From: a virus
Strand: one strand, 5' to 3'
IMG/VR virus record: IMGVR_UViG_3300011430_000027
Span: 1 to 35,740 of that record
DNA length: 35,740 nucleotides
Part shown: positions 7,588 through 23,728 of the stretch, in pieces
How positions within the stretch are numbered: position 1 is the stretch's first letter
How the letters are laid out: each line of letters starts with the position of its first letter
Program-made: the position numbers and the translations under genes
Notes under the pieces: model-generated
What the model was told of the DNA's origin: nothing
Databases searched by the model: none
The model's input: only the letters and a program-made list of their open reading frames with translations

Positions 7588-7807
7588 GATTGGCCTCCTT
7601 GACGTCGGCCCACTGTGCGAGCCAACCTGGTTGATAGAAGGACGACGGGTGCTTCCGCCGGTCTTCTGTGAAGATCTCCTCCTGTACCACAGCTAAGTAC
7701 GAGGGCTCATCAAAGCGTGGGTTTCGCGTTGGGAGCAACTCGTAGTAAGCTTGGTAGAACTGCTGCCATTCTTCAGCAGTCCAAGAGACGTGTCGTTTCC
7801 GTGCCAT
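7571..7807 (-). CDS. Hypothetical protein, 78 aa, Trp/Tyr-rich
   Basis: ATG at 7807 is preferred over an adjacent ATG at 7810 because GGAGG lies 4 bases before it; the longer open frame upstream overlaps deaminase coding. The protein (MARKRHVSWTAEEWQQFYQA...) starts with a basic stretch and a SWTAEEW segment that recalls the start of Myb/SANT-like helices, then aromatic-rich helices (FYQPGWLAQWADVKEAN). DNA binding is possible but not established. It overlaps the dCMP deaminase by 35 bases and the 42-aa gene by 17. Confidence 0.5.
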   Translation of the reverse strand: MARKRHVSWTAEEWQQFYQAYYELLPTRNPRFDEPSYLAVVQEEIFTEDRRKHPSSFYQPGWLAQWADVKEANRARID

Positions 7808-8240
7808 CATTCCTCCATGAGTGTGGAACCCATTCACCGCCTGCCCGCAGCCAGAGGTCCTGAGCGGCAGGTTCATGACCAGCATGCAGAAAGACTATCC
7901 GCCTGCAGCTAGTATTCAAAAGCATCTTGGTGCACCTCATACAAGGTGCGTGTGTCACATATGCCGTCTTGACTTTGAACGGATCGGGGCAGGTGAGCAG
8001 TGCGTTCTGCTCAGCATGGACTGCCTCACAAAGATCGGACCCACGGGGAGCACAAGCGCCCGCACAAGGGGCGTCTGTGCAATGGGCCATGCCATGTGGC
8101 ACCCCATTGTAGCCTGTGCCGCAGATCCGATCCCGTTCATCTGTCAAGACGGCCCCCACTGCTAGCTTGTGGCACGTCGACCTGGTACTAAGTGCCAGGG
8201 CCACGCGCAACATGACATCCGCAATGGAGGGCCTGCTCAC
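7773..8240 (-). CDS. dCMP deaminase (zinc-dependent), 155 aa
   Basis: Converts dCMP to dUMP, the usual substrate for thymidylate synthase. The cytidine-deaminase-fold motifs are clear: VHAEQNALL (His75, Glu77) and APCMRCTKMLL (Cys100, Cys103) give the catalytic zinc site. The region CGTGYNGVPHGMAHC, with further Cys around residues 54-71, resembles the second zinc site of T4-type and ComEB-type dCMP deaminases. The N-terminus MLRVALALSTRSTCHKLAVGAVL is typical of the family, which usually has 130-190 residues. The start is GTG at 8240, overlapping the stop of the pyrophosphohydrolase (GTGA). It sits last in a four-gene nucleotide module. Enzymes of this family are normally regulated by dCTP/dTTP. 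Confidence 0.9.
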   Translation of the reverse strand: MSRPSIADVMLRVALALSTRSTCHKLAVGAVLTDERDRICGTGYNGVPHGMAHCTDAPCAGACAPRGSDLCEAVHAEQNALLTCPDPFKVKTAYVTHAPCMRCTKMLLNTSCRRIVFLHAGHEPAAQDLWLRAGGEWVPHSWRNDGTETTRLLDC

Positions 8241-8626
8241 TTGATGAGCCTTTCGATGGTTGCTGCGATCGCAATGTCAGGCGGCACCCAACCTTCGGGC
8301 TTCTGTGCATCGATCTTATTGCCACGGGAGGTCATGCCAAGGACCTTCTGCATGTTGGCCTTCTGCACATGGGCCCAGCACTCGTCTGCCGGGATGCCCA
8401 TCATGTAGAGCGTGCCCAAGGCAACATACACGATGTCCAGGAGACCATCCGTCGCCTTGACGATGTCACCATGCATCCCCGCCTCGAAGTACTCGTCGAG
8501 CTCCTCGCTAAGGAAGCGGTATCGCTCGAGAACGAAGTCCGCCGAGATGAGCGTGGGTGACTCGGGCTGTGCCACATGCAGGATCACTTTGTGGAACTCC
8601 CCCACATCATCAAACATTGAGCTCAT
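8237..8626 (-). CDS. All-alpha NTP pyrophosphohydrolase (MazG/HisE-like), 129 aa
   Basis: Members hydrolyse (d)NTP to (d)NMP and pyrophosphate. Visible signature: FLSEELDEYFEA (Glu41, Glu42, Glu45) and, 15 residues on, DGLLDIVYVALGT (Asp60, Asp64), the EExxE...(E/D)xxD magnesium site of MazG-like and HisE-like enzymes. Then comes CWAHVQKANMQKV (Asn91, Lys94), the family's usual W/N/K segment. ATG at 8626 has GAGGTG just upstream and lies 17 bases inside the TS-like gene. The nucleotide is not readable. Given a TS homologue predicted to use dCMP next door, dCTP (as for T4 dCTPase gp56) is the attractive guess; dUTP is the alternative. Confidence 0.8.
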   Translation of the reverse strand: MSSMFDDVGEFHKVILHVAQPESPTLISADFVLERYRFLSEELDEYFEAGMHGDIVKATDGLLDIVYVALGTLYMMGIPADECWAHVQKANMQKVLGMTSRGNKIDAQKPEGWVPPDIAIAATIERLIK

Positions 8627-9452
8627 ACTTCACCTCATCGGAGTGTTGGTAGTTGATGATCTCGAGCATCTCGGGCTTGAAGTTGAAGACCGAAGCGCGC
8701 GGGTCCAGGGCCCACGTCGGCGGCTCATGGCTCTCCTGGTTCAAGTGCACCTTCAAGGCCTCGAAGTGGTTCTCGTAGACATGCACGTTGCCCAGCATGA
8801 AGGTGAGCGAACCGAGCCTCAGACCTACCGTCTGAGCCATCAAGATACTCAACCCCGCGTACAGCACCACGTCCGTCGGGAAGCCGAGACACATGTCTAC
8901 CGACCGCATGTAGACACTTGTGTAGAGGCGACCGTTGTGGACACAGAACTGTGTCAAGATGTGACACGGGGGAAGACACATGTCGTCGAGGTCCGCAGGG
9001 TTCCAGGTAGTCATGACATGTCGCCGACTTGTCGGTTCCATTATCAAGCTCTTCACCACCTGTTGCAGCTGGTCCACACCGTTCATGTTCCGCCACTGCG
9101 CGCCGTAGATCTTCCCCACGCGCCACTCCTCCACCGGCTTGCCCTTGTTCTTCTCCCACGCCGCTGCGTTGGCATCCCAGTAGTTGCAACCGTACTTCTT
9201 GAAGGTTGCAAGGTCCGTGGCGCCTTCCAGGAACGCAGCGAGCTCACCGAAGATGGGCTTCCAGTGCATCTTGCGGTTCGTCAAGATGGGGAAGTGACCG
9301 TTGCCGAGACTTACGAGGCGTACGGTTGCCCCGAAGGTTGCCACGGCAGGACCAACGCGGGTCTCCTCCATGGAGCCATGTTGAATGACGCCTACTACGG
9401 TACCTTGGTAGGTATCATCGTAGTCGTTGTCGCCAGTCATGATCTTGGTCAT
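8610..9452 (-). CDS. Thymidylate synthase family enzyme with Asp at the Asn177 position (predicted dCMP-specific), 280 aa
   Basis: Clear ThyA fold: Arg32 (EETRVG), Glu70 (IFGELAAFLEG), paired Arg143/Arg144 (TSRRHVMTTWN), catalytic Cys163 (LPPCH), RSVD (183-186) and NVHVYENH. ThyA aligns without gaps from Cys146 to residue 177. There ThyA has P-F-N and this protein has P-T-D (Asp194). In ThyA, Asn177 discriminates against cytosine; T4 dCMP hydroxymethylase has Asp here, and the ThyA N177D mutant is known to methylate dCMP. I therefore predict dCMP as substrate. The second Trp of ThyA (Trp83) is Asn here. The C-terminus YELNV keeps the TS-like ending with Val, which favours methylation over hydroxymethylation, but weakly. 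ATG at 9452 is chosen for its GGGAG. Ordinary dTMP synthesis remains possible. Confidence 0.85.
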   Translation of the reverse strand: MTKIMTGDNDYDDTYQGTVVGVIQHGSMEETRVGPAVATFGATVRLVSLGNGHFPILTNRKMHWKPIFGELAAFLEGATDLATFKKYGCNYWDANAAAWEKNKGKPVEEWRVGKIYGAQWRNMNGVDQLQQVVKSLIMEPTSRRHVMTTWNPADLDDMCLPPCHILTQFCVHNGRLYTSVYMRSVDMCLGFPTDVVLYAGLSILMAQTVGLRLGSLTFMLGNVHVYENHFEALKVHLNQESHEPPTWALDPRASVFNFKPEMLEIINYQHSDEVKYELNV

Positions 9453-9453
9453 G

Positions 9454-9744
9454 TCACTCCCCCGCTGCCTTGAGCCATGCAAGGTAGAACACGGCGTAGT
9501 TGATGAGGTCGTACAGGGTCTCCTCGATGGACTCGTAGTTGGGAGCCATGTTCGGATCGGCTTGCATCTGCTGCCCGAGGGAGACGAGGCGCGTCGTCTT
9601 CACGTGAAGCATCTGGATGTACGAGATGTCACCGAAGGGGAAGTAGTCCTGAAGTTGGACGATGCCGCCGTTGTAGTCCTCGTGCTTCTTGACAACGAGG
9701 TCAAGCGCAGGTTGGACGAGCGACAAGTAGAGAGCTTTTTGCAT
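9454..9744 (-). CDS. Nmad1-like (DUF1599-type) nucleotide-modification-associated protein, 96 aa
   Basis: All-helical protein with KKHEDYNGG (residues ~19-27), FPFGDISYIQMLHVKTTRLVSL and NYESIEETLYDLINYAVFYLAWL near the C-terminus. This K-x-H-x-DYG...K..RL..L...ESIE(D/E)TL.DL.NYA pattern is how I remember the phage domain called nucleotide modification associated domain 1. That family is tied by genome context to base modification; its biochemistry is unknown to me. ATG at 9744 has GGAG upstream. It ends one base before the TS-like gene and lies just after a terminator. Family assignment is from memory of the pattern, not a search. Confidence 0.6.
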   Translation of the reverse strand: MQKALYLSLVQPALDLVVKKHEDYNGGIVQLQDYFPFGDISYIQMLHVKTTRLVSLGQQMQADPNMAPNYESIEETLYDLINYAVFYLAWLKAAGE

Positions 9745-22083: not shown

Positions 22084-22428
22084 ATGCCTGAACTGTACGT
22101 GCTCCCCCCACCGCCGACGGAGAAGCAGCTGCAACGCCAGGTGCGCGAGACCTTTCTCGAAGCATTTGACAGACTCGGCGGCATAGAATATCTCGTCACC
22201 TTCGCACAGGCTGACCCCGCCAACGCGCGAGTGTTCGTCCAAGCCCTGACGAAGATGATCCCCAAGGAGATGGACGTCCATTCTGCCGCTCTTCTCGCTG
22301 CAAACCAACAGAGGCGGATGACCTTTGACGTACCATGGCTGACCAGTCGGCGTCTTACGTACAAAGACGCCAGAGACCAGACCGACTCTATGGTAGTGGA
22401 AGATGCTGTCATACACTCCCCGGAGTGA
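22084..22428 (+). CDS. Putative terminase small subunit, 114 aa
   Basis: ATG at 22084 with GAGG 7 bases upstream. Helical N-terminal half (TEKQLQRQVRETFLEAFDRLGGIEYLVTFAQADPANARVFVQALTKMIPKE); the 'P..F..AL.KMIPKE' segment is common in small terminase subunits and related DNA-packaging proteins. It overlaps the large terminase by 26 bases, the classic terS-terL order. Small subunits recognise the packaging site on the genome. No clear helix-turn-helix can be drawn, so the call rests mainly on position, size and the MIPKE segment. Confidence 0.65.
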   Translation: MPELYVLPPPPTEKQLQRQVRETFLEAFDRLGGIEYLVTFAQADPANARVFVQALTKMIPKEMDVHSAALLAANQQRRMTFDVPWLTSRRLTYKDARDQTDSMVVEDAVIHSPE

Positions 22429-23728
22429 CTTCATAGAGTTCCACAACCGGAAGCAACGGTGGGGCGCGCTCTGCACGCATCGCAGAGCGGGGAAGACCGT
22501 TGCCTTGGTCAACGACCTGGTCTTCGGGGCGCTCGAGTGCGACAGATATCGCCCTCAGCTGGCTTATGTCGGCCCCACATACGGCCAAGCCAAGAAGGTG
22601 GCCTGGCAGTATCTCAAAGACTTCACGAGGCGCTACGATGCCATCCCAAAAGAAGCAGAGCTCAAGGTCCTCCTCCCCAATGACAGCTCCATCTATGTGC
22701 TCGGTGCCGATAACGCCGATTCGCTACGCGGTATGTATCTTGATGGCTCAGTACTCGATGAGTATGCTCTTTTCAAGCCTACGGTCTTCCCGCAGATCAT
22801 CCGCCCCGCGTTGTCAGACCGATTCGGATGGAGCGTCTTCGCCTCCACCCCACGAGGCAAGAACCTCTTCCACGTGATATGTCAGATCGCAAAGAAGAAC
22901 CCAGACACTTGGTACTACTTGTTGCTCTCTGCAGCTACAAGTAGCATCATTCCACAAGAGGAGCTACACGAGCTGCAAAAGGACATGGACCCTGAGGAGT
23001 TTGCTCAGGAGTATCTATGCTCATTTGACTCTGCTCTCAAAGGTGCCATTTACGCAGATGAGGTGAATGAGCTCTTCCTCGATGGGCGCGCCGTAATAGA
23101 TAGGCGGCTGTACGAGCCAGCGCTCCCCACCCATTGTGCGTTGGACCTAGGGTTTACCGATGCCACGGTGTGCATCTGGTTCCAAATACACCAGGATGGT
23201 CGTCTGGCTATTGTCGCTTGTGAGGCCACACAGGGCCAGGCCATCATCGCCCACATCGAACGGATGGGGCAGTTCAAAGGGCCCAAGGGCGAGGTGTTCC
23301 TCCCCCACGACGCCCGAGCAAAGAACCTCCAGACTGGGAAGTCGATCATCCAGCAGTTCACTTCGTACGGGATCACACCTCAGATCATCCCGAATCACAA
23401 GGTGCGTGATGGCTTGGCTGCGGTTCGGAAAGCGTTCCCTGCCATTTGGGTCGACCTCAATACAACTGGTGAGCTGCTGGAGGCGATGAAGTCCTATCGC
23501 CGGAAGTGGAGCGACACCAAGCTGCTATTCGAGGACGCGCCCCTCCACGATTGGGCCAGTGACTACTGCGACGCGCTACGGTACACAGTGCTAGGCGCGG
23601 GGCTCCTGGGGTTCGACAAGGGCAAGCTCCAGGTGTCACAAGACACGCCAGATCAGGTGGCGGACTACTGTCTCGAGCATCTGCACGCAGACGCTCAGAA
23701 CCTACGGTACATCAGAAGGGTGGCATAG
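22403..23728 (+). CDS. terL: Terminase large subunit, 441 aa
   Basis: DNA-packaging motor: an ATPase that pumps DNA through the portal plus a nuclease that cuts it. ATPase: Walker A CTHRRAGKT (24-32), Walker B with catalytic Glu GSVLDEYALF (Asp119, Glu120), coupling motif FASTPRGK (146-153). Nuclease: HCALDLGFTDAT (Asp248) as the first metal-binding acid of the RNase H-like domain, later acids around PLHDWASDYCDALR (~390-403). Length is normal. ATG at 22403 lies within the small-subunit gene. It is followed one base later by the portal gene. Confidence 0.93.
   Translation: MLSYTPRSDFIEFHNRKQRWGALCTHRRAGKTVALVNDLVFGALECDRYRPQLAYVGPTYGQAKKVAWQYLKDFTRRYDAIPKEAELKVLLPNDSSIYVLGADNADSLRGMYLDGSVLDEYALFKPTVFPQIIRPALSDRFGWSVFASTPRGKNLFHVICQIAKKNPDTWYYLLLSAATSSIIPQEELHELQKDMDPEEFAQEYLCSFDSALKGAIYADEVNELFLDGRAVIDRRLYEPALPTHCALDLGFTDATVCIWFQIHQDGRLAIVACEATQGQAIIAHIERMGQFKGPKGEVFLPHDARAKNLQTGKSIIQQFTSYGITPQIIPNHKVRDGLAAVRKAFPAIWVDLNTTGELLEAMKSYRRKWSDTKLLFEDAPLHDWASDYCDALRYTVLGAGLLGFDKGKLQVSQDTPDQVADYCLEHLHADAQNLRYIRRVA

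Follow-up and report, generated by a model that had tools for sequence, protein, structure and literature searches.

We asked which nucleotide is the substrate of a thymidylate synthase (TS) homologue encoded in the window, the whole 35,740-nucleotide stretch of a viral record (IMGVR_UViG_3300011430_000027) analysed here. Its base-selecting residue is Asp, at the position of Asn177 in E. coli ThyA. Known phages gave no nucleotide match to the first 25 kb of the window. An initial annotation had placed an intact homologue at 8610-9452 without giving a strand. The gene was indeed found there, on the minus strand, and its 280-residue product matched PF00303 (Thymidylat_synt) over its whole length (Pfam, E 5.5e-71) and PHROG 160 (E 1e-81). 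The following features of the gene and its product are referred to below (Cys-3 is the third residue before the catalytic Cys; the Asp clade comprises the query and its relatives):

8613-9452, stop codon 8610-8612, minus strand: TS-family gene, 280 aa, ATG at 9452; predicted dCMP methylase
9162-9173, minus strand: four-residue insert ANAA between Trp92 and Trp99, clade-specific by alignment with the closest relatives
8973-8975, minus strand: codon of Leu160 at Cys-3, TS-like by alignment; Asp or Glu in hydroxymethylases (PMC6400193)
8964-8966, minus strand: codon of the catalytic Cys163 (LPPCH) by alignment; invariant in the Asp clade
8871-8873, minus strand: codon of Asp194, equivalent to ThyA Asn177, the base selector, by alignments
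8613-8630, minus strand: C-terminal tail KYELNV, of TS length by alignment and model; lacking in T4 dCMP hydroxymethylase (PMC6400193)

An AlphaFold model of the protein, with 20 window and IMG/VR sequences as alignment input, had a mean pLDDT of 93.3. Residues 6-280 superposed on solved thymidylate synthases with Z 35-36, and the model matched ThyA to 1.2 Å across 257 residues, with 31% identity in the structural alignment. T4 hydroxymethylase was absent among the 50 structural matches listed, and nothing was concluded from its absence. The residues of the superfamily are complete in the query, with the catalytic Cys163, the phosphate Arg pair and the equivalents of Glu58, Tyr94, Asp169 and His207/Tyr209.

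Relatives were gathered by scanning viral contigs with an alignment of nine relatives and two short patterns that excluded the selector position. This gave 78 IMG/VR proteins with 31-51% identity to the query, with Asp at position 177 (ThyA numbering) in 76/78 and Asn in 2/78. In contrast, a control set of 80 ordinary viral thymidylate synthases, picked for closeness to canonical TS, had Asn in 79 and Asp in one. Asp194 is therefore neither chance nor a sequencing error. Its alignment with ThyA Asn177 was as initially annotated, since the 31 residues from Cys163 to Asp194 match C146 to N177 of ThyA without gaps. The preceding position 176 is Ser, Thr or Ala in the relatives (PFN to P[STA]D) versus Phe or Tyr in the controls, and His147 is mostly kept across the clade. 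The annotation had also held that ThyA Trp83 is replaced, and this was wrong: in the alignment with close relatives, which have the ANAA insert in common, the insert after Trp92 brings Trp99 of the query onto Trp83, and 72/78 relatives have Trp there. The C-terminal Val (..YELNV) that it had pointed out is present in the query but is not a rule of the clade, which is instead marked by a hydrophobic tail of TS length.

The two Asp-clade members with Asn at 177 were L082 (4992-5819) and L059. At L082, a deaminase was not found nearby and a DHFR-like gene lay downstream at 8352-8897, as if this locus had reverted to thymidylate synthesis. Another viral TS, otherwise ordinary (L151, 4998-5798; PFD, P92, H147), carries Asp at 177, apparently through a separate switch; the genes on either side of it resemble a P-loop kinase and a dUTPase. 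On two Gracilibacteria MAG contigs (L178 and L179), the Asp-clade TS genes are open when TGA is read as glycine (code 25) and stop early under the standard code; judging from these reading frames, their phages seem to share the genetic code of their host.

Besides the selector, the residue at Cys-3 bears on whether the product is methylated or hydroxymethylated. In the ternary complex of the T4 enzyme, substrate choice is made by Asp179 (ThyA 177) and hydroxymethylation by Asp145 at Cys-3 (ThyA Leu143), aided by Ser94, and the C-terminal tail is absent; the acid at Cys-3 is tied to water activation and is required for hydroxymethylation, so that even D145N abolished product (PMC6400193). We compared reference proteins by column. 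ThyA, which makes dTMP, has N177/L143, and SPO1 gp29, a member of the TS superfamily annotated as a dUMP hydroxymethylase, has N177/D143, the opposite combination to that of the query. The hydroxymethylases have D177/D143 (T4 gp42 and its Aeromonas relative) or D177/E143 (AlbertHofmann), and the Cheeto1 protein likewise has an acidic residue at Cys-3. The Asp clade has D177/L143, the one combination left, and is expected to consist of dCMP methylases. Relatives of Xp12 are a further kind, D177/N143/P147. This suggests a two-residue code in which position 177 picks the base and Cys-3 picks methyl or hydroxymethyl, with the clade as the fourth cell beside T4, SPO1 and ThyA; the code is testable by swaps within one enzyme.

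The query thus combines the reduction-type active site of TS (Leu143, Trp83 and tail) with Asp177. According to work cited in PMC8670742, an engineered Asn to Asp TS methylates dCMP to 5-methyl-dCMP. These engineered enzymes, E. coli ThyA N177D and L. casei TS N229D, have the TS fold, the Leu before Cys, the tail and the Asp selector in common with the query. Unlike them, it is a natural protein, diverged from ThyA, with the clade-specific insert, the neighbouring P[ST]D and a predicted activity. Because Leu at Cys-3 and the TS-like tail are kept, dCMP methylase is the best reading of its function. The dCMP specificity proposed initially is strongly supported by the Asp found throughout the clade, by published structures and engineered enzymes, and by the association of Asp177 with modified-cytosine contigs (PMC8670742). 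The slight preference for methylation also gained support, on better grounds than the terminal Val, namely Leu at Cys-3 and the long tail.

Placement in a tree had been proposed as a check. In a tree of 24 sampled clade members with the base-selecting column masked, a branch supported at 99/95 set all 24 apart from the remaining sequences. The viral clade was sister to ordinary TS, and apart from T4-type, SPO1 and Xp12-type proteins. AXL1, PaMx28 and other relatives were used as stand-ins for Xp12. The query and the AXL1/PaMx28/Donnerlittchen proteins formed separate branches in both trees, but their forced union was not formally rejected (AU p 0.26), and that all Asp-type enzymes arose only once is thus neither shown nor rejected. 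A nucleotide-level dCMP methylase with whole-genome 5-methylcytosine (5mC) is known from Xp12, the DNA of which contains 100% 5mC (PMC7653180). If the present reading is true, the Asp clade is a second, separate-looking lineage of such nucleotide-level replacement.

A scan of ~85,000 species genomes of bacteria and archaea returned four members only, on MAG contigs of 26-44 kb, and the family is therefore essentially viral. The clade occurs in many environmental phages, and its cultured carriers include Edwardsiella phage KF-1, Dickeya phage Amaethon, Vibrio phage VPMS1, Pseudoalteromonas phage PH1 and Pelagibacter phage Kolga. Their proteins are annotated as thymidylate synthase; we predict that this large viral family makes 5-methyl-dCMP rather than dTMP, which gives a prediction for the virion DNA of phages already isolated. 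The terminase of the window (22403-23728) was 56-70% identical to those of a few IMG/VR contigs and ~36% identical to those of the HTVC010P group of Pelagibacter podoviruses; in the records of its more distant relatives, TS was not found.

The TS gene lies second in a four-gene operon, together with:

9454-9744, minus strand: DUF1599-like protein ('nucleotide modification associated domain 1'), 96 aa; PF07659 E 7e-4, under the curated cut-off; PHROG 18404 E 6e-15
8237-8626, minus strand: MazG/PRA-PH nucleotide pyrophosphohydrolase, 129 aa, predicted dCTP/dUTP pyrophosphatase; PF01503 E 4.6e-13; PDB DR2231 MazG-like protein E 4.2e-11
7773-8240, minus strand: dCMP deaminase, 155 aa, with HAE and PCxxC motifs; PF00383 E 5.9e-17; PDB dCMP deaminases E 4.3e-16

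The genes are tightly packed. One base separates the stop of the DUF1599-like gene from the ATG of TS, the MazG gene overlaps the TS stop, and the MazG and deaminase genes have 4 bases in common. The near relative L238 has the identical four-gene order, which local profiles found in 16/78 relatives; a further 14 of the 78 had the order TS, MazG, deaminase. L238 is one of several relatives in which the DUF1599-like gene is placed as in the window. A local HMM scan of neighbours was demoted from main evidence because its seeds were biased towards Asp-type loci and it detected no DHFR anywhere, and whole-record Pfam searches of 25 Asp-type and 25 Asn-type records were used instead. Deaminase was present in 20/25 Asp-type vs 3/25 Asn-type records (p 2e-6), and PRA-PH in 17/25 vs 4/25 (p 4e-4). 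DHFR exceeded the cut-off in three Asp-type records, all among the five without deaminase, and was not recognised in the window. The dNMP kinase (PF21448) was not found in the window or in cultured clade members, nor was it recognisable in three Xp12 relatives. As discriminators, both DHFR and this kinase proved weak, being rare in the Asp and Asn groups alike.

The same set of MazG, Asp-type TS and dCMP deaminase forms the clusters of AXL1, PaMx28 and Donnerlittchen, and in relatives of Xp12 these genes lie in one cluster with DHFR (PMC9206674). Xp12-type enzymes (Pamexvirus/Bradleyvirinae), such as gp63 of Stenotrophomonas phage AXL1, thus have the Asp selector and the adjoining MazG and deaminase genes in common with the query. 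They differ in Asn at Cys-3, Pro after Cys and Phe for Trp83, where the query has Leu, His and Trp, and also in a long insert and in the DHFR of their cluster. Enzymatic selection in MetaGPA likewise found Asp177 TS with PRA-PH and dCMP deaminase on modified-cytosine contigs, in which position 147 differs as well (PMC8670742). Since the Asp clade mostly keeps His at this second discriminating position, the MetaGPA contigs may largely be other lineages, and that survey may not have sampled the clade.

Two arrangements were seen at individual loci. L019 (IMGVR_UViG_3300020045_009671) carries two TS-MazG-deaminase cassettes, both with Asp and separated by ~5 kb. Their identity over 966 bases is 92.7%, and they reflect either tandem duplication or faulty assembly. 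At L008 (6347-6955), L009 (6379-6978), L012 (6360-7109) and L004 (7450-8160), genes adjoining Asp-type TS encode a dCMP deaminase domain fused to the N-terminal domain of dATP/dGTP diphosphohydrolase (PF18909); three of them are annotated as hypothetical.

Phages with unmodified DNA tend towards loss of palindromic restriction sites. We therefore compared log2 observed/expected cytosine-containing 6-mer palindromes between the two kinds of locus, with redundancy removed (34 Asp-type, 51 Asn-type). This ratio was -0.19 for Asp vs -0.44 for Asn loci (p 4e-5), with a GC-adjusted effect of 0.22 +/- 0.07, and A/T-only palindromes and mirror-image control words were equal in the two groups. The window itself was not depleted (486 observed, 520 expected); phages with a related terminase in which TS was not found had a median of -0.54. 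Kolga, an Asp-type phage, had 387 observed against 439 expected, whereas Jormungand, which shares its host strain, had 84 against 261, a roughly threefold depletion; TS was not found in 34 kb of Jormungand, nor annotated in the rest. Three other Pelagibacter phages without TS had 80/280, 121/295 and 146/253. At 10 kb, the scores of L151 and of the Asn members L059 and L082 were within noise. The relaxed avoidance suggests cytosine-modified DNA in Asp-type phages, as support rather than proof, because avoidance also varies with host, lifestyle and GC. The Pelagibacter phages L239, L241, L243 and L244 strongly and specifically avoid 6-mer palindromes that contain cytosine, and two genes of Jormungand are annotated as ArdA anti-restriction; Pelagibacter hosts thus seem to exert real restriction pressure. 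On the restriction resistance of KF-1, ETP-1 or VPMS1 DNA, nothing was found in the literature.

Taken together, we consider it moderately probable that the phage enzyme is a dCMP methylase, the product of which, 5-methyl-dCMP, is built into DNA as 5mC. That the substrate is dCMP is very probable; given dCMP, a methyl rather than a hydroxymethyl product is expected with much the same confidence, and given both, 5mC in the phage DNA is quite likely. Operon content and relaxed palindrome avoidance lead us to expect modified cytosine in the virion. From the observed fold, residue pattern, clade, operon and palindrome statistics, we infer the substrate, product, kinase step and incorporation as follows. 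A one-carbon unit from methylene-tetrahydrofolate would be transferred to C5 of dCMP and reduced to methyl, as TS does on dUMP, yielding 5-methyl-dCMP and dihydrofolate. Asp194 would pair with cytosine, and Leu160 and the C-terminal tail would exclude water, favouring hydride transfer over hydroxylation. The MazG-type enzyme may cleave dCTP (and dUTP) to dCMP (and dUMP), keeping unmodified dCTP low, and the deaminase may turn remaining dCMP into dUMP, from which the host would make thymidylate. Phosphorylation of 5-methyl-dCMP would follow, probably by a host kinase, and 5mC would replace cytosine in phage DNA, blocking many host restriction enzymes; restriction-resistant DNA is probably the purpose of the enzyme. 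Against this reading stand the dNMP kinase and DHFR not found as described above, the mostly kept His147, in which the clade departs from the MetaGPA modified contigs (PMC8670742), and the fact that MazG and deaminase would fit a dUMP-supplying pathway equally well. The literature searched contained no enzyme assay or nucleoside analysis of any Asp-clade member.

Alternatively, the adjacent deaminase could turn 5-methyl-dCMP into dTMP, by-passing dUMP, and such a dUMP-free route might even supply both 5mC and T from one methylated intermediate; we regard either form as unlikely. T4-kind dCMP deaminases accept 5-methyl-dCMP, the deaminase gene of the Asp-type records is often near TS, no Asn-type TS was found in any Asp-type record scanned, and the missing dNMP kinase fits as well. 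However, 5/25 Asp-type records have no recognisable deaminase, the relaxed cytosine-palindrome avoidance indicates modified DNA, an Asn-type TS with a deaminase would achieve the same, and this set of genes is also carried by relatives of Xp12, a phage in which all cytosine is 5mC.

An ordinary dTMP synthase that acts on dUMP despite its Asp, fed with dUMP by the deaminase and by MazG in the role of a dUTPase, is slightly less probable still. Its remaining catalytic residues are those of TS, the nearest solved structure to MazG is DR2231, and Asn in two clade members indicates that the switch is evolutionarily easy. Yet the query has Asp194 in place of the Asn177 of dTMP synthases, engineered TS with Asp at this position, like the T4 and MilA enzymes, strongly prefers cytosine nucleotides, and both Asp and the adjacent change of Phe to Ser, Thr or Ala are kept across very diverged sequences.

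It is similarly improbable that the enzyme is a dCMP hydroxymethylase of the T4 kind, in which water rather than hydride would complete the reaction to give 5-hydroxymethyl-dCMP and hmC-DNA: the Asp selector, the superfamily and the setting in phage nucleotide metabolism are those of T4 gp42, and MazG and deaminase neighbours fit T4 logic too, but Cys-3 is Leu in the query and in 78/78 relatives, the residue two before the catalytic Tyr is Lys instead of Ser/Thr, Trp83 is kept where gp42 has Val, the tail is long and TS-like, no sugar or carbamoyl transferase was found among the window genes scanned, and DHFR, which only the reductive reaction requires, is present in some Asp-clade records.

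A full hydroxymethylase signature (D177, D143, S92) was seen elsewhere, in the TS homologue of Microbacterium phage Cheeto1 (L185, 2480-3298). The gene lies near glycosyltransferase and thymidylate kinase genes, and glycosylated hmC is predicted for a common group of Microbacterium phages.
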